A DNA stretch of 64,000 nt from positions 1-64,000 of the forward strand of contig NZ_JADOTV010000009.1 in assembly GCF_015767245.1 (NCBI RefSeq). The letters are read 5' to 3'. This DNA is from Aureivirga sp. CE67. GTDB taxonomy: Bacteria > Bacteroidota > Bacteroidia > Flavobacteriales > Flavobacteriaceae. Within the stretch, counting starts at the first letter, position 1. Each line of letters opens with the position of its first letter. Shown piece after piece: positions 55,010 to 62,014 of the stretch. The notes below the pieces were generated by a model, which was not told the origin of the DNA, ran no database searches, and saw nothing but the letters and a program-made list of their open reading frames with translations. Both the position numbers and the translations under genes were made by a program.

Positions 55010-55424
55010 AAATAACTGTTTATATTAATAATTGTGTTTGATTTTCAATTACAATGATTAAGGTATATAAACAGTTGAAGTCTATAAGCAGTAGTTCCAA
55101 ATCCCAATCTCTTCCTTAATGCTAGATTTAAAACTTATATTTTCTACATCCGGCTGCAAATATATAATAAATTATTAAATATTTATATAATGAGTTTTAT
55201 TTTTAAAGTTTATAAGTATTTTTTATTTAAAATATTAAAGATTAAACAACGACTATAGTGTCGCTTTTTACAGTTATATAAATTTTCTTAAAAAAAGAGG
55301 AAAGAAGTATATTTTTTTGTAAAATTTTCTAAATCATATTCATATAATCATTAGAAACAATAGGCACACTTCACAAAAGTGCGCCAGGTGTGGGTAAATG
55401 AGATATTTCAATATCAACTAAATT
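55010..55424. other. 415-bp intergenic region
   Basis: Very AT-rich; contains a half REP-like repeat at 55351-55387 close to the end of the transglutaminase operon. No gene, promoter or clear terminator was recognised. Confidence 0.5.
55351..55387 (-). repeat. half copy of the REP-like repeat (first hairpin only)
   Basis: TTAGAAACAATAGGCACACT to GTGCGCCAG is the reverse complement of the first half of 51438-51510. The second hairpin is missing. Confidence 0.65.
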
Positions 55425-56450
55425 TTACCTCTTTTTACGAACCACTTTTACAACATAAGTACAAATAACTTCTCCATCAACACGAATGTGAACATCATAA
55501 GTACCTTTAGTTTTAAATTCTCTTTTCAGTTCTACAATTCCATTTTCTTTATAAATAATTTCAGGTTTAGTTCTGATAGTATTTTTCCCTGAAACAATCA
55601 TCAAATCTATTTTCTGATTTCTATTTTTCTGCTCTTGTTCCATAACAAAAGTGAGTGTATCATTTTTAGAAACTCTAATATTCATTTTTGAAGGAGAAAC
55701 AGGGAATAATTTATGTTTAAAAGCCTTTTCGTATAAAAGTGGACTTTCATGAAATTTTTCTAATGCTAGATTTGATTCTGTCAAAAGCCATTTTTTTTCT
55801 AAAGGATAATGTGTCTTAGAAAAGAATCTCGGATTGGTCAAAAAATAACCATCAACATATTCAAAAATATAACGATTTACATCCAAATCCGTATAACCAC
55901 TAGACCAAGTAGGATCACACAAATACCATTTATCTTTTAATAAAACCACATTCCAAGAATGATTTGGAATTTTATTTTTCTCATCTACAATTGCAGGAGT
56001 TCTACCATATCCGTTTATGATTTCACATTCAATATCAACAATATTCGCCATTCTTTTGACTAGATAGGCATAGCCAGTACAAAGCGTTTTTTTCTTTTCA
56101 TAAAGTTTCTTGATCACAATCGGAACAAAGTGACTATTCCATTCTCGTAATTTTAAACTGTCATTACGAAATTTGTATCGCTTATTTCGATTTGTAGAAA
56201 AAGCTGTGTAGTCATTTTTAATATTATCACATACCCATTTGTAGATTGCTCTAAACTTCTCTACATCTGTCTCCAGAGAATTAGTTAGTTTGTAAGTTAG
56301 AATATGTAAATGTTTTAAATCTTCACCTTTATAAATTGCAGCAATGGAGTCTGCTTTTTTAAAATCAATTTCTCCAAAATCGGATTGTTGTGCATTAATT
56401 GAAAAACTATAAATGGTAAAAAGGAAAATTAATAAGTATTTTTTATGCAT
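55425..56450 (-). CDS. secreted transglutaminase-like protein, last gene of the paralogue operon
   Basis: The 341-residue protein has a signal peptide (LIFLFTIYSFSINAQ). A transglutaminase-like cysteine peptidase core follows: KFRAIYKWVCDNIKNDY, then Cys124 in TLCTGYAYLVK, His164 in PNHSWNVVLL and Asp179 in LCDPTWSSG, the standard catalytic triad. A C-terminal beta-sandwich (residues 245-341) ends in a basic tail VVRKKR. Such enzymes crosslink or cleave peptides. Its start overlaps the end of the last carboxypeptidase-regulatory paralogue by 8 nt, so it is translated with that array and likely acts on or with those proteins. Confidence 0.85.
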   Translation of the reverse strand: MHKKYLLIFLFTIYSFSINAQQSDFGEIDFKKADSIAAIYKGEDLKHLHILTYKLTNSLETDVEKFRAIYKWVCDNIKNDYTAFSTNRNKRYKFRNDSLKLREWNSHFVPIVIKKLYEKKKTLCTGYAYLVKRMANIVDIECEIINGYGRTPAIVDEKNKIPNHSWNVVLLKDKWYLCDPTWSSGYTDLDVNRYIFEYVDGYFLTNPRFFSKTHYPLEKKWLLTESNLALEKFHESPLLYEKAFKHKLFPVSPSKMNIRVSKNDTLTFVMEQEQKNRNQKIDLMIVSGKNTIRTKPEIIYKENGIVELKREFKTKGTYDVHIRVDGEVICTYVVKVVRKKR

Positions 56451-57162
56451 CTTTTTTTCTAAATAAATTTAAAAATCGTTGAAAAAGATTAGGTTTCTCT
56501 ACAATGACTTCATATTCTCCTAAAGCATGTGAAGTATCTTCTAAAATGATATCAAGGATTATAATATCTTCTCTTTTATTTTTTTTAATTATAACTTCTT
56601 TTTCTTCATAGCCCATAAAGCTAAAAACAAGAATGTCATTTTCTTTTAATTTTTCAGGAAAAATAAATTTCCCATTTATGTCTGATGAAGTTCCAATGTT
56701 TGAGCCTTTAAGAAATATATCAACACCAGGAAATATTCCAGTATCATCATATGTTGTACCTGTTACAGAATATTTTTTTTCATTTTTTGTTTTTTTCTTT
56801 GGAGTTGCCTGTTTATTTTCTTCTATATAATAAGGTTTTCCTTGAGCAAAAGTTGTTCCTGAAGTAAAAAAAGAAAGAAATGATAACCCGATAATACTTG
56901 CAGCTCCAAGTAAATTATACTTTTTAGGTTTAACTTTTTTAGTTTCTGTTAGTACAAAATCAAGATCTTCTTTTCTAAATCTTCCACAAGTGTTTTTAGA
57001 TGATTTATTTTGAAAAAAAGTTATAATTTCTTCTTTAGACATTTTTGTGAAATCAATGACTTCTGTTTGACAAGATTGACAAAATCCACCTTTTTCAGTT
57101 TGTGTGAAGTTTTTAAATTTTTCACTACAAGGTTGTGGAATTGAAATTTTAATCTTTTGCAT
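56443..57162 (-). CDS. Cys-motif / TM / carboxypeptidase-regulatory protein, paralogue 5
   Basis: The 239-residue protein shows the array layout: an N-terminal ~65-residue Cys domain (PCSEKFKNF, GGFCQSCQTEVIDFT, NTCGRF) that may bind zinc in the cytoplasm, one membrane helix (GAASIIGLSFLSFFTSG, about residues 86-105), a linker, and a carboxypeptidase-regulatory-like beta-sandwich (SVTGTTYDDTGIFPGVDIFL to LVFSFMGYEEKEV). The tail FQRFLNLFRKKDA is basic. This copy is the most diverged: it has FTKMSKEE and lacks the TETDFDG loop (SSDINGKF instead). The following transglutaminase gene overlaps it by 8 nt. Confidence 0.78.
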   Translation of the reverse strand: MQKIKISIPQPCSEKFKNFTQTEKGGFCQSCQTEVIDFTKMSKEEIITFFQNKSSKNTCGRFRKEDLDFVLTETKKVKPKKYNLLGAASIIGLSFLSFFTSGTTFAQGKPYYIEENKQATPKKKTKNEKKYSVTGTTYDDTGIFPGVDIFLKGSNIGTSSDINGKFIFPEKLKENDILVFSFMGYEEKEVIIKKNKREDIIILDIILEDTSHALGEYEVIVEKPNLFQRFLNLFRKKDA

Positions 57163-57163
57163 T

Positions 57164-57901
57164 TTATTTTTCTTTTCTCTTGAAAATATTTTTTACCCTT
57201 TGAAAAAAAGAAGGTTTGGATTGGTAAACATTATTAGTCGCAACTTTACCAATAACCGCATCAATATATTCTTGCTCTAAAATAATATTTAAATTAATGG
57301 TTTCATTTTCTTCTTTTCTTTTAATCTTATATTCAAAATCACGATATCCAACAAAACTAAAAACAAGAATATCACCAGCTTTTAATTTTTCAGGGAATTC
57401 AAAATTTCCATCAAAGTCAGTTTCAGTACTAATCGTCGAATTTTTCAAAACAACAGTTGCAGAAGGCAAACCTTCATATTCATCACTTACAATTCCTTTT
57501 ACAGTATATTTTGTTGTTTGTTTAACTTCTTTCTGTTTTTTCGATTCTACTTGATGAGTTTTATTCGTGTTTTTTTGTGCATAAACAGAATTTGGATTAA
57601 AAAAAGAAAGTAAAGAAAATCCAATAATACTTGCTGCTCCAGCATATTTAAATCGAGGTTTCTTTTCTAAAGGAATTATTTTTGAATTATTAGTGTCTAA
57701 TTGCTCTTTTTGGAAATATCCACATACTTTTTCATTTCTGTTTTTCAAATATGATAGAATTTCTTCTTTAGACATATTTGTGAAATCAATCACTTCTGTC
57801 TGACAAGATTGACAAAATCCTCCTTTTTCTGTTGGTGTAAAATTTTTGAATTTTTCAGAACATGGATTAGGAACTGAAATAGTCTCGTTTCTGTTTTTCA
57901 T
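57164..57901 (-). CDS. Cys-motif / TM / carboxypeptidase-regulatory protein, paralogue 4
   Basis: The 245-residue copy has PNPCSEKFKNF, GGFCQSCQTEVIDFT and KVCGYF in the N-terminal Cys domain, the membrane helix AASIIGFSLLSFFNPNSVYAQ, and the external domain TVKGIVSDEYEGLPSATVVL, STETDFDGNFEFPEKLKAGD and LVFSFVGYRDFEYKI. The tail is KPSFFQRVKNIFKRKEK. The VYAQ at the end of the helix looks like a signal-peptidase site, so the membrane segment could be cleaved; an uncleaved anchor is equally possible. It is 1 nt from paralogue 5. Confidence 0.8.
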   Translation of the reverse strand: MKNRNETISVPNPCSEKFKNFTPTEKGGFCQSCQTEVIDFTNMSKEEILSYLKNRNEKVCGYFQKEQLDTNNSKIIPLEKKPRFKYAGAASIIGFSLLSFFNPNSVYAQKNTNKTHQVESKKQKEVKQTTKYTVKGIVSDEYEGLPSATVVLKNSTISTETDFDGNFEFPEKLKAGDILVFSFVGYRDFEYKIKRKEENETINLNIILEQEYIDAVIGKVATNNVYQSKPSFFQRVKNIFKRKEK

Positions 57902-57910
57902 AACTTAAAT

Positions 57911-58654
57911 TTATTTTTCTTTTCGTTTAAAAATATTTTTTACTCTTTGAAAAAAAGTAGGTTTTGATTGGTAAACTTGGTCTGTTGAAGCCTCTCCAGT
58001 AATTATAAATCCATCTAATAGTTGTCCACCATCTTCCAAAACAATGTTTAATATTAGTGGATTTTCTTCTCCAGTAATTAGAACTTCTTTATCATAATAC
58101 CCAACAAAACTAAAAACTAATGTATCCCCTACAGAAGCATTAATAGTAAATTTCCCATCAAAATCAGTTTCTGTTCCTCTACTTGTACCTTTAATAACAA
58201 CAGATGCTCCAAGTAAAGTTTCAACTTCATCACTTACAGTCCCTTTTATAGTAAATTGTTTTGTTTGTTCTGTTTGTTTCTGAATTTCGCTTGTTTCTAT
58301 TTGATGTGTTTGATTTTTGTTTTCTTGCGCTAGGGTATTATTTGGTGTTAAAAAAGAAAGTATTGAGAAGCCAAAAGCACTCGCTGCCCCATAATATTTA
58401 AATCTAGGTTGTAAAGATGTGATTTTTTGTTTTATAGGAGGTGCGCTTAATTGTGATTTTTTAAAATGGCCACAAATGGATTGCTTTGTTTTATCTTTAA
58501 AATAATCCTGAATTTCTTCTTTAGACATATTTGTGAAATCAATCACCTCTGTCTGACAAGATTGACAAAATCCACCTTTTTCTGTGGGTGTGAAATTTTC
58601 AAATTTCTCTGAACAAGGATTTGGAATTTGAATTTTGAGGTTGTTATTTTCCAT
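57911..58654 (-). CDS. Cys-motif / TM / carboxypeptidase-regulatory protein, paralogue 3
   Basis: The 247-residue copy has the Cys domain (PNPCSEKFENF, GGFCQSCQTEVIDFT, SICGHFKKSQ), a helix with ASAFGFSILSFLTPNN and the external domain TIKGTVSDEVETLLGASVVI, GTETDFDGKFTINASVGDTL and VFSFVGYYDKEVLI. That domain wording (VVIKGTSRGTETDFDGKF) is the closest in the set to SusC/RagA N-terminal domains. The tail reads KPTFFQRVKNIFKRKEK, identical in the last ten residues to paralogue 4. Neighbouring genes are 9 nt away on both sides. Confidence 0.8.
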   Translation of the reverse strand: MENNNLKIQIPNPCSEKFENFTPTEKGGFCQSCQTEVIDFTNMSKEEIQDYFKDKTKQSICGHFKKSQLSAPPIKQKITSLQPRFKYYGAASAFGFSILSFLTPNNTLAQENKNQTHQIETSEIQKQTEQTKQFTIKGTVSDEVETLLGASVVIKGTSRGTETDFDGKFTINASVGDTLVFSFVGYYDKEVLITGEENPLILNIVLEDGGQLLDGFIITGEASTDQVYQSKPTFFQRVKNIFKRKEK

Positions 58655-58663
58655 ATGGGTTTT

Positions 58664-59416
58664 TTAGTTTTCTTTTTTCTTAAATATATTTTTAATTCTC
58701 TGAAAGAAGGTAGGTTTAGATTCATAAATTTCACTCTCTGCAATAGCTCCTCCAAGTTCGATTCCACATATAAATGCATTACCAGAGTCTAAAATAATTT
58801 CTAATGAAATTACTTCTCCTGATTCTTTTCCAGTTATTGTATATTCTTTATCCCTAAATCCAACATAGCTAAAAACAAGAACATCACCAGCTTTTAATTT
58901 TTCAGGGAATTCAAAATTTCCATCAAAGTCAGTTTCTGTGCCTATCTGAGAATATTTTAAAACAATAGATGCAGAAGGTAAACTTCCATCTTCATCACTT
59001 ACATTTCCTTTTACAGTATATTCTTTTATTTGATTAGTATTTTCGTGTTTTTTATCTGTTTCTACTTGATGTGTTTTATTCGTGTTTTTTTGTGCATATA
59101 TAGAATTTGGATTAAGAAAAGAAAGTAAAGAAAACCCGATAACACTTGCAGCTCCTAGAAATTTGTATTTTTTAGATTCCATTTTTTTGATTTGAGAAAC
59201 AGGATAATCTAAATCTTCTTTTTTAAATCTTCCACAAATACGTTGATTCAATTTATCTTTAAAATAATCTTGAATTTCTTCTTTAGACATATTTGTGAAA
59301 TCAATCACTTCTGTCTGACAAGATTGACAAAATCCACCTTTTTCTGTTGATGTGAAATTTTCAAATTTTTCAGAACATGGATTTGTCATTCGGATCTTGA
59401 GGTTGTTATTTTTCAT
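58664..59416 (-). CDS. Cys-motif / TM / carboxypeptidase-regulatory protein, paralogue 2
   Basis: The 250-residue copy is almost identical in its first 120 residues to paralogue 1 (same KLNQRICGRFKKEDLDY and KKYKFLGAASVIGFSLLSFL). The external domain differs more: SASIVLKYSQIGTETDFDGN, LVFSYVGFRDKEYTITGKES. The C-terminal part has a small insert with CGIELGGAIAESEIYESKPT. Tail FQRIKNIFKKKEN. The high identity to its neighbour implies recent duplication or gene conversion. Confidence 0.8.
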   Translation of the reverse strand: MKNNNLKIRMTNPCSEKFENFTSTEKGGFCQSCQTEVIDFTNMSKEEIQDYFKDKLNQRICGRFKKEDLDYPVSQIKKMESKKYKFLGAASVIGFSLLSFLNPNSIYAQKNTNKTHQVETDKKHENTNQIKEYTVKGNVSDEDGSLPSASIVLKYSQIGTETDFDGNFEFPEKLKAGDVLVFSYVGFRDKEYTITGKESGEVISLEIILDSGNAFICGIELGGAIAESEIYESKPTFFQRIKNIFKKKEN

Positions 59417-59424
59417 ATGTTTTT

Positions 59425-60177
59425 TTAAGTTTTCTTTTTTTTAAATATATTTTTAATTCTCTGGAAGAAAGTAGGTTTAGATTCATAAATTTCACTCTCT
59501 GCAATAGCTCCTCCTAGATTGATTTCTTCAAATTTTGTGTTGTTGCTATTTAATGTAATTTTCAATAGTATCACTTCATCAATTTCATTTCCAGTCAATT
59601 TAATTTTTTTATCATCATATCCAACATAGCTAAAAATGAGAATATCTCCAGCTTTCAATTTTTTTGGAAATTCAAAATTTCCATCAAAGTCTGTTTCGGT
59701 ACCTATCGTCGAATTTTTCAAAACAATAGTTGCAGAAGGTAAACTTCCTTCTTCATCACTAACAATACCTTTTACAGTATATTCTTTTATTTGGTTAGTA
59801 TTTTCGTTTTTTTTATCGTTTTCTACTTGATGTGTTTTATTCGTATTTTCTTGTGCATAAACAGAATTTGGATTAAGAAAAGAAAGTAAAGAAAACCCGA
59901 TAACACTTGCAGCTCCTAGAAATTTATATTTTTTAGATTCCATTTTTTTAATATGAGAAACAGAATAATCTAAATCTTCTTTTTTAAATCTTCCACAAAT
60001 ACGTTGATTCAATTTATCTTTAAAATAATCTTGAATTTCTTCTTTAGACATATTTGTAAAATCAATCACTTCTGTTTGACAAGATTGACAAAATCCACCT
60101 TTTTCTGTAGCTGTGAAATTTTCAAATTTCTCCGAACATGGATTTGCCATTCGAATCTTGAGGTTGTTATTTTTCAT
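59425..60177 (-). CDS. Cys-motif / TM / carboxypeptidase-regulatory protein, paralogue 1
   Basis: The 250-residue copy starts MKNNNLKIRMANPCSEKFEN and carries GGFCQSCQTEVIDFT, CGRFKKEDLDYSVSHIKKME, the membrane helix and VYAQ site, then TVKGIVSDEEGSLPSATIVL, IGTETDFDGNFEFPKKLKAG and LIFSYVGYDDKKIKL. The tail is IYESKPTFFQRIKNIFKKKKT. It is 8 nt after the truncated first gene of the operon and 8 nt before paralogue 2. Confidence 0.8.
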   Translation of the reverse strand: MKNNNLKIRMANPCSEKFENFTATEKGGFCQSCQTEVIDFTNMSKEEIQDYFKDKLNQRICGRFKKEDLDYSVSHIKKMESKKYKFLGAASVIGFSLLSFLNPNSVYAQENTNKTHQVENDKKNENTNQIKEYTVKGIVSDEEGSLPSATIVLKNSTIGTETDFDGNFEFPKKLKAGDILIFSYVGYDDKKIKLTGNEIDEVILLKITLNSNNTKFEEINLGGAIAESEIYESKPTFFQRIKNIFKKKKT

Positions 60178-60185
60178 ATGTTTTT

Positions 60186-60626
60186 TTAGTTTTCTTTTTT
60201 CTTAAATATGTTTTTAATTCTTTGGAAAATGGAAGGTTTGGATTGGTAAATTTGATTTGAACTAAGATCATCTAGGCATATTATTATATTATCTGCCTTC
60301 ATTTCAATTTTAAAATAATTGTTTTTATTTTTCTCAGTAATTAAATATTCTTGATAATCATAACCTACATAACTAAAAATTATCGTATCTCCAACAGAAA
60401 CTTTAATAGTGAATTGCCCATCAAAATCTGTTTCTGTATCAGTTGTTGTATTTTTTATTATAACGCTTGCACTTGGTAATGGTCCATCTTCATCATAAAC
60501 AATTCCTTTAAGAGTAATTTCATTTTTGTTTTCTTGTGAATACCCGATATTTGATATAAAAAGAAAAGAAATGATTAATAAAAATAAATTAGATTTTTTA
60601 AGTGGTCTGAAGTTTAGTGTTTTCAT
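60186..60626 (-). CDS. short array member: signal peptide + carboxypeptidase-regulatory domain
   Basis: The 146-residue protein heads the operon. It has no Cys domain; its N-terminus is a basic segment MKTLNFRPLKKSN and a signal peptide FLLIISFLFISNIGYSQ. The external domain (TLKGIVYDEDGPLPSASVII, TDTETDFDGQFTIKVSVGDT, IIFSYVGYDYQEYLI) and the tail KPSIFQRIKNIFKKKEN are the same as in the full-length copies. It is therefore a paralogue whose cytoplasmic part was replaced or lost. It would be fully periplasmic after cleavage. Confidence 0.78.
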   Translation of the reverse strand: MKTLNFRPLKKSNLFLLIISFLFISNIGYSQENKNEITLKGIVYDEDGPLPSASVIIKNTTTDTETDFDGQFTIKVSVGDTIIFSYVGYDYQEYLITEKNKNNYFKIEMKADNIIICLDDLSSNQIYQSKPSIFQRIKNIFKKKEN

Positions 60627-60772: not shown

Positions 60773-62014
60773 ATGAAAAAGAAAATACTTTTCTATTCTA
60801 TTTTAGTTTTTTGTAGTTACAATGTTTTTTCTCAGGAAATTGAAAGATGTGCTTCAGAAGCATTTATGAATGAAAAAATGAAAAATGCTGAATATCAAAA
60901 AGAACATCAAGAAATTCAAGAATTATTTCAAGCGAATTTAATTCAGAACAAAATATCCAGAAAAACCCAAAACGAATTATATATTCCGGTTGCTGTACAT
61001 TTTCCTACAGGAAGTGAAACCAACAGAGCGTGTTTGGTAGAATTAGCTCAAAAGCAAATAGAAATTTTAAATCAAGATTTTAACGGAGCAAATCAAGATA
61101 TTTCAAACTGGCAAACAGTAAAAAATAATTACCCGAATTCTAATACAGGAGCTGTCAATGTAAAATTCGTTCTTGCTACTAAAAATCATCCAAATTTAGA
61201 TCCAGAACTTTTAGAAAACGAACCAGCAGTAACTATTGGATATAATTTTGGTGATGGAGGAGATAATGATCTAAAATGGGCAGGATATTTAAATTTTTTA
61301 GTGAAACCAATCGGTACAGGAATTTTAGGTTATTCGCCAGTAGGAGGGAATCCGCTTAATGGTGATGCAATTGTTATGAATGTAGATGCTTTTGGTGATA
61401 ATACGGTTGGTTGTGGAGAATTTACAGCTGGATTTCCATTTGATTTAGGGAGAACTGTGACTCATGAACTTGGACATCATTTTAATCTTGAACATATTTG
61501 GGGGAATGGGTGTAGCATTGATGATGGAATAGAAGATACTCCGGATGCAGCTTCGCCATCTTCAGGTTGTCCAGGAATGATTCCGGAGTGTGGAAGTATT
61601 AATATGACAATGAATTTTATGGATTATACAAATGATGCTTGTATGTATATGTTTTCGGAAGGTCAGACGGAAGTGATGCGAGCTTATATCGAATCGGTTA
61701 TTTCTAATTATCACAATGATCGTTTGGATCCATATCACACAAATTCTACACAAAATAGACCAGAGGGATTTTCATTTGATATTTATCCAAATCCAAGTTT
61801 GGACTTTTTTAATATAGAAATGATTTCGAAAAGTAATACAGAAGAAATCACAATTCATCTTTATGATACAAGAGGAAGATTAGTTTACAATCGAAAATCT
61901 TCAGTGTATACAAATCATAAGATTCAGACCGATATTTTTAATAAAGGATTTTATATTATTAAAATTTTTGGAGGAGGAAATCAGTTTGTCGGTAAAATAT
62001 TGATTGCTAAATGA
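60773..62014 (+). CDS. secreted M43-family zinc metalloprotease with T9SS type A sorting domain
   Basis: The 413-residue protein has a signal peptide (ILFYSILVFCSYNVFSQ), a propeptide-like helical part, and the catalytic motif HELGHHFNLEH at residues 231-241, in which three His bind zinc and Glu232 is the base. The Met-turn lies in SINMTMNFMDYTNDACMYMF, as in pappalysin-type M43 peptidases. Cysteines near GCSIDD, SGCPGMIPECGS and DACM fit the family's disulfides. Residues from about 335 (FDIYPNPSLDFFNIEM to KILIAK) are a T9SS type A sorting domain, so the protease is exported to the surface or medium. Confidence 0.92.
   Translation: MKKKILFYSILVFCSYNVFSQEIERCASEAFMNEKMKNAEYQKEHQEIQELFQANLIQNKISRKTQNELYIPVAVHFPTGSETNRACLVELAQKQIEILNQDFNGANQDISNWQTVKNNYPNSNTGAVNVKFVLATKNHPNLDPELLENEPAVTIGYNFGDGGDNDLKWAGYLNFLVKPIGTGILGYSPVGGNPLNGDAIVMNVDAFGDNTVGCGEFTAGFPFDLGRTVTHELGHHFNLEHIWGNGCSIDDGIEDTPDAASPSSGCPGMIPECGSINMTMNFMDYTNDACMYMFSEGQTEVMRAYIESVISNYHNDRLDPYHTNSTQNRPEGFSFDIYPNPSLDFFNIEMISKSNTEEITIHLYDTRGRLVYNRKSSVYTNHKIQTDIFNKGFYIIKIFGGGNQFVGKILIAK

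Follow-up and report, generated by a model that had tools for sequence, protein, structure and literature searches.

Organization of the locus

The stretch of DNA considered here, 64,000 nucleotides from Aureivirga sp. CE67 (Flavobacteriaceae; contig NZ_JADOTV010000009.1, positions 1 to 64,000), is referred to as the window, and its element of interest is an array of seven tightly packed minus-strand open reading frames (ORFs) spanning 55425-60626. Six small proteins with a CarbopepD_reg domain are encoded ahead of a secreted enzyme of the transglutaminase fold (Table 1); throughout, TG denotes the Transglut_core gene or protein, and partner denotes the CarbopepD_reg gene or protein upstream of a TG. 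The intergenic distances in transcription order are 8, 8, 9, 9, 1 and -8 nt, so that the packed seven-gene layout described in a first-pass annotation of this DNA, with gaps of 1-9 nt and a terminal overlap of 8 nt, is borne out. CarbopepD_reg_2 (PF13715) lies above its cut-off in 6/6 window partners, and Transglut_core (PF01841) scores 42.6 bits in gene 7 against a cut-off of 23. The window partners have no plug or barrel and end shortly after the CarbopepD_reg_2 domain, and their match to TIGR04056 covers only about the first 90 of 981 positions, far under the cut-off.

The same annotation had counted five copies with a cysteine domain and a sixth without it, which is likewise correct: genes 2-6 carry a four-cysteine (four-Cys) domain at their N terminus, and the 146-residue product of gene 1 lacks it. 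The cysteines stand at positions 14/30/33/61 in three copies, at 14/30/33/60 in another and at 12/28/31/59 in the last, and all copies have intact reading frames. A TETDFDG motif and a basic C-terminal tail, previously assigned to all five, are present in four; gene 6, which adjoins the TG, reads TSSDING instead and ends in the degenerate tail VEKPNLFQR. The single promoter that had been assumed for the array was not shown, since the stretch upstream of gene 1 holds no TAnnTTTG box; sigma-70-type matches there number 22 against a mean of 34.6 in shuffles, which is fewer than expected by chance.

Table 1. Features of the seven-gene array and its immediate surroundings, in window coordinates
Feature	Position	Strand	Description
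Gene 1	60186..60626	-	146-aa CarbopepD_reg_2 partner with an ordinary N-terminal signal peptide, without Cys domain; tail YQSKPSIFQRIKNIF
Gene 2	59425..60177	-	250 aa; four-Cys domain, internal signal peptide, CarbopepD_reg_2 domain, YESK tail
Gene 2, four-Cys pre-signal domain	59968..60177	-	Residues 1-70
Gene 2, internal signal peptide	59851..59931	-	Residues 83-109, with 109 as the N-terminal Gln after the cut predicted at VYA|Q109; sequence prediction
Gene 2, CarbopepD_reg_2 domain	59521..59775	-	Residues 135-219
Gene 2, C-terminal tail	59428..59490	-	Y-x-S-K motif and basic stretch
Gene 3	58664..59416	-	250 aa; architecture as gene 2
Gene 3, four-Cys domain	59207..59416	-	
Gene 4	57911..58654	-	247 aa; architecture as gene 2
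Gene 4, four-Cys domain	58445..58654	-	
Gene 5	57164..57901	-	245 aa; architecture as gene 2
Gene 5, four-Cys domain	57695..57901	-	
Gene 6	56443..57162	-	239 aa; architecture as gene 2, most diverged, Y-x-S-K lost
Gene 6, four-Cys domain	56959..57162	-	
Gene 7	55425..56450	-	341 aa; secreted TG-fold enzyme, Transglut_core
Gene 7, C-terminal Ig-like domain	55440..55730	-	Residues 241-337; filamin-like in predicted model
Terminator-like hairpin	55363..55385	-	Downstream of gene 7; consensus match only

Conservation of the partner and TG as a pair

The association of the two gene types, noted at first in this one locus, is real and conserved. A TG profile (A5) built from 14 TGs gave 56 full-length matches above 340 bits, counted by eye, in a sample of 299 Flavobacteriaceae genomes, and a CarbopepD_reg gene lies upstream of the TG in 56/56. 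With eight further TG loci added, an upstream CarbopepD_reg gene on the same strand is found in 64/64, and the two genes overlap or are separated by at most 34 nt in 63 of these, the remaining pair being 307 nt apart. Twenty of the partners counted with the profile for CarbopepD_reg neighbours had also gone into building it; an independent Pfam check identified CarbopepD_reg_2 in 17/17 partners scanned outside the window (nine no-domain partners of full-length TGs, three partners of short TGs among those counted and five from loci L262, L291, L292 and Aureibacter). Short TGs of 220-240 residues without the C-terminal domain (263-311 bits) have a CarbopepD_reg neighbour in 11/11 cases, two of these matches (G421 and G581) spanning one stop codon, and remote TGs (148-171 bits) have one in 0/6. 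The partner and the TG are thus a conserved pair. Culturable carriers of it include Aquimarina amphilecti DSM 25232 and Olleya namhaensis DSM 28881 (loci L021 and L022).

Beyond the Flavobacteriaceae, the pair occurs in two genomes of another family (L291 and L292) and on plasmid pAT2 of Aureibacter tunicatorum (order Cytophagales, L287), where two four-Cys copies precede the TG; a search of a plasmid collection with the TG also returned a weak match in Nostoc. On pAT2, the annotated start of the second four-Cys partner falls within the Cys domain, though the upstream frame is open and has an ATG, and an alpha-2-macroglobulin gene follows.

The partners in the sample of 56 fall into 35 with the four-Cys domain, one of which reads as two ORFs, and 21 without it. 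Partners without it are encoded by ORFs of 123-186 aa and have a conventional signal peptide that ends in AQ or GQ, in 21/21 as judged by eye and in 20/21 by a pattern confined to the first 75 residues. In the cases where the motif was recognized, the mature partner would measure 111-142 aa with the domain (40/42) and 99-121 aa without it (19/21). On a tree of the TGs, enzymes whose partners have the domain, enzymes whose partners lack it and the short TGs each form one side of a branch, with L238 assigned by hand to the Cys-domain group as its partner reads as two ORFs whose pieces were left unjoined. When outgroups are included, the boundaries become less sharp, the Cys-domain label changes three times and weakly supported forks join Aureibacter to the no-domain group; on this tree, the domain may have been either gained or lost.

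The four-cysteine domain

A family set of 139 distinct proteins with the four-Cys domain (E <= 1e-4) was collected from the loci examined. The spacing C-x15-C-x2-C-x(25-27)-C is exact in 128 of the 139, and a wider pattern accommodates 136. The domain was found in 82 of the 299 Flavobacteriaceae genomes, in 43 of 296 genomes sampled across the phylum and in 12 of 40 genomes made up of the organism's own and its relatives; in the Aureivirga sp. CE67 genome itself the five window copies are the only matches, and a protein search of the plasmid collection matched Aureibacter and Hymenobacter. What follows the signal peptide varies among the 101 four-Cys proteins scanned for downstream domains at E <= 0.01, in which CarbopepD_reg_2 was found 60 times, TonB_C 14 times, Por_Secre_tail twice and Plug once.

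No Pfam model covers the Cys region and none in NCBIfam does (best 0.0076), the best Pfam matches there being scattered (DUF6887 at 2e-05 in 2/26, ADK_lid at 5e-04 in 6/26), and the domain is therefore unnamed, no model describing it having been found in either collection. It is probably metal-binding, and a predicted model (19 sequences, pLDDT 77.5) places the CxxC in a beta hairpin. On the negative side, no similar solved fold was found: Foldseek with this model returned nothing under E 2.8, and VIA-align gave no Z >= 2 among the 36 chains supplied. The weak Pfam matches to Cys-rich families (ADK_lid, Fer2) name no metal. A profile search of the PDB produced weak, partial matches only, the best of them an HMG protein at E 0.027.

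Nothing resembling a signal sequence stands ahead of the four-Cys domain, and in the family the net charge averages +2.3 over the 15 residues preceding the hydrophobic core. Because the domain precedes the signal peptide, with positive charge before the core, it is expected to be cytosolic; the cytoplasmic placement proposed at first is thus the most likely one. Zinc anti-sigma factors have a comparable layout, in which a cytosolic zinc domain with the motif H-x3-C-x2-C is followed by a helix and a periplasmic sensor. The array proteins share with them the small cytosolic Cys domain, the one hydrophobic segment and the periplasmic domain, and this overall similarity of layout is what speaks for an anti-sigma-like regulator; however, they differ in the Cys pattern and in having cleavage motifs. 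The anti-sigma motif was found in 1/139 family proteins and in none of the window, none of the 25 families most frequent in 120 neighbour proteins (163 families in all) is a sigma-factor family, and the lipoprotein and type IX secretion system (T9SS) versions of the family do not fit such a role. This very improbable reading was rejected on account of the wrong Cys pattern and the lack of a sigma factor among the commonest neighbour families.

A probable cleavable signal peptide behind the four-cysteine domain

The hydrophobic segment that follows the four-Cys domain had been taken for a membrane helix; it behaves instead like a cleavable signal peptide and is most likely one, to be cut by signal peptidase I (SPase I) or II (SPase II). 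In the abstract and passages of PMC5837995, an N-terminal Gln after the SPase I cut is given as the rule for Bacteroidota SPase I substrates. The five four-Cys window copies all have a segment ending in AQ that fits SPase I, and none has a lipobox. Cleavage motifs were counted in 133 of the 139 family proteins, the six without a hydrophobic core being excluded: a Q-rule site (small-x-small-Q) follows the core in 83 and a lipobox in 26. The positions are narrow, the Gln lying 17-20 residues past the core start in 67/83 and the lipobox Cys 14-16 residues past it in 23/26; among the four-Cys TG partners, 40/42 have a Q-rule site. In 87 of the 133, the linker or core start contains no Met that could begin a shorter protein.

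Three controls were used. The first consisted of 63 other ORFs from the same loci, each with one internal hydrophobic segment; under a common filter, a cleavage motif was present in 72/82 family proteins as compared with 5/63 controls (Fisher p 7e-24), and the five control matches are all Q motifs, with lipoboxes in 0/63. The difference holds for stronger cores (26/29 versus 2/16) and for the strongest (7/7 versus 0/11). In the second, a stretch farther downstream in the same proteins yielded a motif in 16/133. The third used shuffled segments of a first set of 101 rows, reduced to 95 by dropping six without a hydrophobic core, and gave a mean of 2.5 lipoboxes against the 26 observed.

A number of points count against cleavage as the general rule. 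Neither motif is present in 24/133, including the Aequorivita-type proteins of L031, L034 and L093, and the Q pattern is loose, as the same shuffles contain a mean of 20.4 against 52 observed (n = 95). The first control is also imperfect, in that many of its 63 ORFs resemble soluble enzymes, two of its five matches are TG partners with a start called too early, and one of its misses is a glutaminyl cyclase lipoprotein with the same fault. As a separate observation, the three Aequorivita proteins are long four-Cys proteins with seemingly two CarbopepD_reg-like stretches.

Should the segment remain uncut, each protein would span the membrane once as a sensor, its Cys domain on the inner side and its CarbopepD_reg domain on the outer, and the AxAQ site would go unused or be cut only in response to a signal. 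Four strictly spaced cytosolic cysteines do suggest a working domain rather than a discarded leader, and the recognized cut site is missing in the 24 proteins just mentioned. The excess of cleavage sites over the controls speaks against it, however, as do homologues in which the whole front part is replaced by an ordinary signal peptide. Two family members (L143:7938-8993 and L159:6471-7514), moreover, carry a T9SS sorting domain together with the internal signal peptide; such proteins must leave the inner membrane, which fits cleavage. The uncut sensor is accordingly rated rather doubtful, and a permanent sensor reaching from inside to outside, as the first-pass annotation had pictured the Cys domains, is not favoured because the segment behaves as a cleavable signal.

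Cleavage by SPase II would apply to other family members. A lipobox and a TonB_C-like domain stand behind the four-Cys domain in L142, L144, L148, L153 and L105, two of the TonB_C matches passing the Pfam cut-off and three falling just below it; these proteins are apparent lipoproteins with a cytosolic front part.

The TG enzyme and the partner tail

The catalytic cysteine named earlier, C124, was correctly assigned, and C124, H164 and D179 are invariant in 14 TG orthologues. The TG profile matches PDB 9crn at E 6e-10, although a PDB search with the single sequence gave no match, and the superfamily structures 9crn and 3isr align to the TG model with VIA Z scores of 9.9 and 8.2. The array enzyme shares the catalytic core and its Cys-His-Asp residues with these members of the Transglutaminase-like superfamily (TglA of S. 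pyogenes and the C. hutchinsonii protein, respectively) and differs from them by an additional C-terminal filamin-like immunoglobulin (Ig) domain and by the constant CarbopepD_reg neighbour. In the predicted model this domain is similar to filamin Ig repeats: ranks 2-9 in Foldseek are all of filamin type, and VIA gives Z scores up to 9.5, with a root-mean-square deviation of 3.2 over 92 residues, values not far above those of common folds. Several of the matched filamin repeat structures were solved with bound (tail) peptides.

The first-pass annotation had put forward the basic tail (FFQRxKNIF) as the general target of the TG, a proposal that is rejected here: by a rough pattern the FFQR-type tail occurs in about 20/64 TG partners, and similar tails are found in relatives without a TG. 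It is the motif Y-x-S-K that goes with the TG. In its strict form, [YF]-x-[ST]-K, it lies near the C terminus of 59/64 partners of full-length TGs, the five exceptions being YKSV, YKST, HHSK, YSST and the degenerate window copy. Among other four-Cys proteins it occurs in 11/98, of which four are the other window copies; none of the remaining seven is in the same context as judged by eye, that of L171 being near the C terminus. In the partners of the short, Ig-less TGs it occurs in 0/11.

TGs without the C-terminal Ig domain (L270-L280 and L262) are each paired with a CarbopepD_reg protein. As the motif is absent where the TG lacks the Ig domain, and as the filamin-like fold has peptide-bound counterparts, it is weakly suggested that the Y-x-S-K tail of the partner docks on the Ig domain. 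Counting against this reading, the catalytic half of the TG model is weak (mean pLDDT 66.9, eight sequences), the eleven short TGs make up one clade on the TG tree, a twelfth short TG outside that clade (L262) is accompanied by a partner whose tail contains ESKR, and gene 6, the window copy adjoining the TG, has lost the motif.

Alternatively, the TG could be a true cross-linker, bonding glutamines of other envelope proteins to the Lys in the Y-x-S-K of the partner and so forming covalent partner chains. The conserved Lys-bearing tail accompanying the full-length TGs and the invariant catalytic residues would agree with this. In the partners of short TGs, however, the Lys motif is lacking even though the short TG of L270 passes the Transglut_core cut-off, which ties the tail to the Ig domain and not to catalysis. 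Most bacterial proteins of the Transglutaminase-like superfamily are generally regarded as cysteine peptidases. On this ground, and from the title of the 3isr entry, deposited as a putative cysteine protease, a peptidase is the likelier assignment for the TG and a cross-linker is improbable.

On a different view of the same pair, the TG would act as a cysteine peptidase that the partner inhibits, chaperones or regulates, with the Y-x-S-K tail occupying the enzyme and remaining unmodified. The fixed gene order with the partner first and close by, the usual ratio of one partner per enzyme and the co-occurrence of the tail with the accessory domain of the enzyme are all in keeping with such a role, yet the several differing partners per enzyme in the window, and the two in Aureibacter, would be odd for an inhibitor; this view is regarded as rather unlikely.

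Origin and divergence of the array

Window copies 2-6 group together (support 86/82) and are separate from the one partner copy that the sister species has; gene 1 is placed without support. One partner per TG is found in the sister species and in the other Flavobacteriaceae TG loci seen. The array is a local duplication of an existing pair. The early description of an undescribed envelope system was therefore right in spirit and wrong in several of its parts; its observations are confirmed and its interpretation is partly supported.

Copies 2 and 3 (58664-60177) differ in a patchy manner, with DNA identities of 96% in the Cys domain, 95% in the linker and signal peptide, 91% in the next linker and 90% in the tail, as against 75% in the CarbopepD_reg domain, a mosaic suggestive of gene conversion or domain exchange. 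Across the window copies, nonsynonymous divergence (dN) amounts to 0.01-0.28 in the Cys domain and 0.23-0.51 in the CarbopepD_reg domain; the copies have retained the Cys side and vary on the periplasmic one. That the array is a neutral amplification serving dosage alone is quite unlikely: the single copy in the sister species would agree with this, but the Cys domain is under purifying selection, with ratios of nonsynonymous to synonymous divergence of 0.06-0.58, the CarbopepD_reg domain diverges faster and every copy has an open frame.

Tandem four-Cys copies without a TG exist elsewhere, as in L152 with four and L026 with three, so that an array combined with a TG is not the general form. 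In one comparison of loci with at least two copies of the domain, only that of the window has a TG, but the subfamily to which the window copies belong always adjoined a TG where the contig allowed this to be seen; the refuting observation named with the first-pass annotation, arrays that mostly lack the transglutaminase, is thus borne out by half.

Glutaminyl cyclase as a recurrent neighbour

The N-terminal Gln that SPase I exposes is the substrate of glutaminyl cyclase, which is as such the enzyme of the Q-rule. Its gene often recurs at four-Cys loci that lack a TG. Of 14 glutaminyl cyclase genes in the loci examined, 13 lie upstream of a four-Cys gene on the same strand, at a distance of 6-471 nt (L147, L150, L151, L156, L026, L031, L034, L103, L252, L253, L257, L258 and L259); another ORF intervenes in L253, and in L067, the exception, the gene is not upstream. 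At least 20 of the 82 domain-bearing genomes, from 17 genera, have a glutaminyl cyclase gene no farther than about 800 nt from a four-Cys gene, the count being a lower bound made by eye from listings. The gene is present in 289/299 genomes, mostly not shown near a four-Cys gene, and five domain-bearing genomes (G020, G381, G422, G576 and G582) have it listed away from the domain. By eye, the domain adjoins a TG or lies near glutaminyl cyclase in 54/82. Common descent accounts for part of this neighbourhood. Neither 'operon' nor 'genomic context' appears in the main text of PMC5837995.

A gene of about 515 codons recurs downstream of the four-Cys gene in L103, L251-L255 and L257-L259. At E 0.001, Pfam gave no match for the copies in L252, L253, L255, L257 and L259, and the genes are treated as one family by length and place only.

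Proposed mechanism and relation to known systems

The explanation that best accounts for these results jointly, probable on balance and far from assured, is that the array is an expanded copy of a conserved envelope module in which an exported partner precursor and a dedicated TG act together. Sec would export both a small CarbopepD_reg (transthyretin-like) partner and a TG-fold cysteine enzyme. The precursor of the partner, in this branch, would consist of a cytosolic four-Cys domain, probably metal-binding, followed by an internal signal peptide. The most likely cut is by SPase I, ahead of the Gln in AxA|Q; it would release a mature partner of about 110-140 residues to the periplasm, its N-terminal Gln converted to pyroglutamate according to the Q-rule, and would leave the Cys domain inside on a membrane stub. 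Relatives without the Cys domain would export a mature partner of similar size by means of an ordinary signal peptide. Once in the periplasm, the partner probably docks through its Y-x-S-K tail on the filamin-like Ig domain of the enzyme, and the two would act jointly, the partner being either substrate or adaptor. The Cys domain, for its part, would gate or time export, or report export to the cytosol, and duplication would have kept it fairly constant while letting the periplasmic domain diverge. The architecture, the conserved pairing and the statistics of the cleavage sites are direct observations, from which cleavage, metal binding, docking and the action of the enzyme are inferred.

These proteins resemble the Q-rule SPase I substrates treated in the parts of PMC5837995 consulted in having AxA|Q after a hydrophobic core, with Sec export expected; unlike those substrates, the array proteins have a signal peptide that begins about 80 residues in, behind the four-Cys domain, and the abstract and passages of that paper describe no precursors with a domain before the signal peptide. 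The CarbopepD_reg_2 domain is the one found at the N terminus of SusC/RagA proteins, and it matches SusC-homologue chains (PDB 9hfj, E 7e-12); the array partners, as compared with SusC/RagA, are small and free-standing, without plug or barrel, and bear the Y-x-S-K tail. In the open-access literature searched, titles and abstract openings revealed neither a Cys domain before a signal peptide nor a partner-TG pair.

More broadly, the four-Cys family might tentatively be regarded as an undescribed precursor type of the Bacteroidota, in which a folded cytosolic metal-binding domain stands before a cleavable signal peptide (of the SPase I or lipoprotein type) on various sorts of envelope protein, whether CarbopepD_reg, TonB_C-like or T9SS-tailed, and couples export or the processing of N-terminal Gln to the metal or redox state of the cytosol. 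The recurring glutaminyl cyclase and TG-fold neighbours suggest a tie to the processing of new Gln N termini at the inner membrane. If the segment is indeed cleaved, a cytosolic metal-binding domain would directly influence protein export, and tools expecting an N-terminal signal would probably mis-sort these proteins. The pairing with the TG and the frequent pairing with glutaminyl cyclase, in turn, supply concrete partners for the Cys-domain proteins.

Other observations at the locus

An anti-phage defence system was rejected as an assignment for the array, PADLOC having returned 0 matches for the 5/7 window proteins scanned. Beside the operon lies a divergent gene (60773-62014, plus strand) that encodes an M43 metallopeptidase with a T9SS sorting domain.

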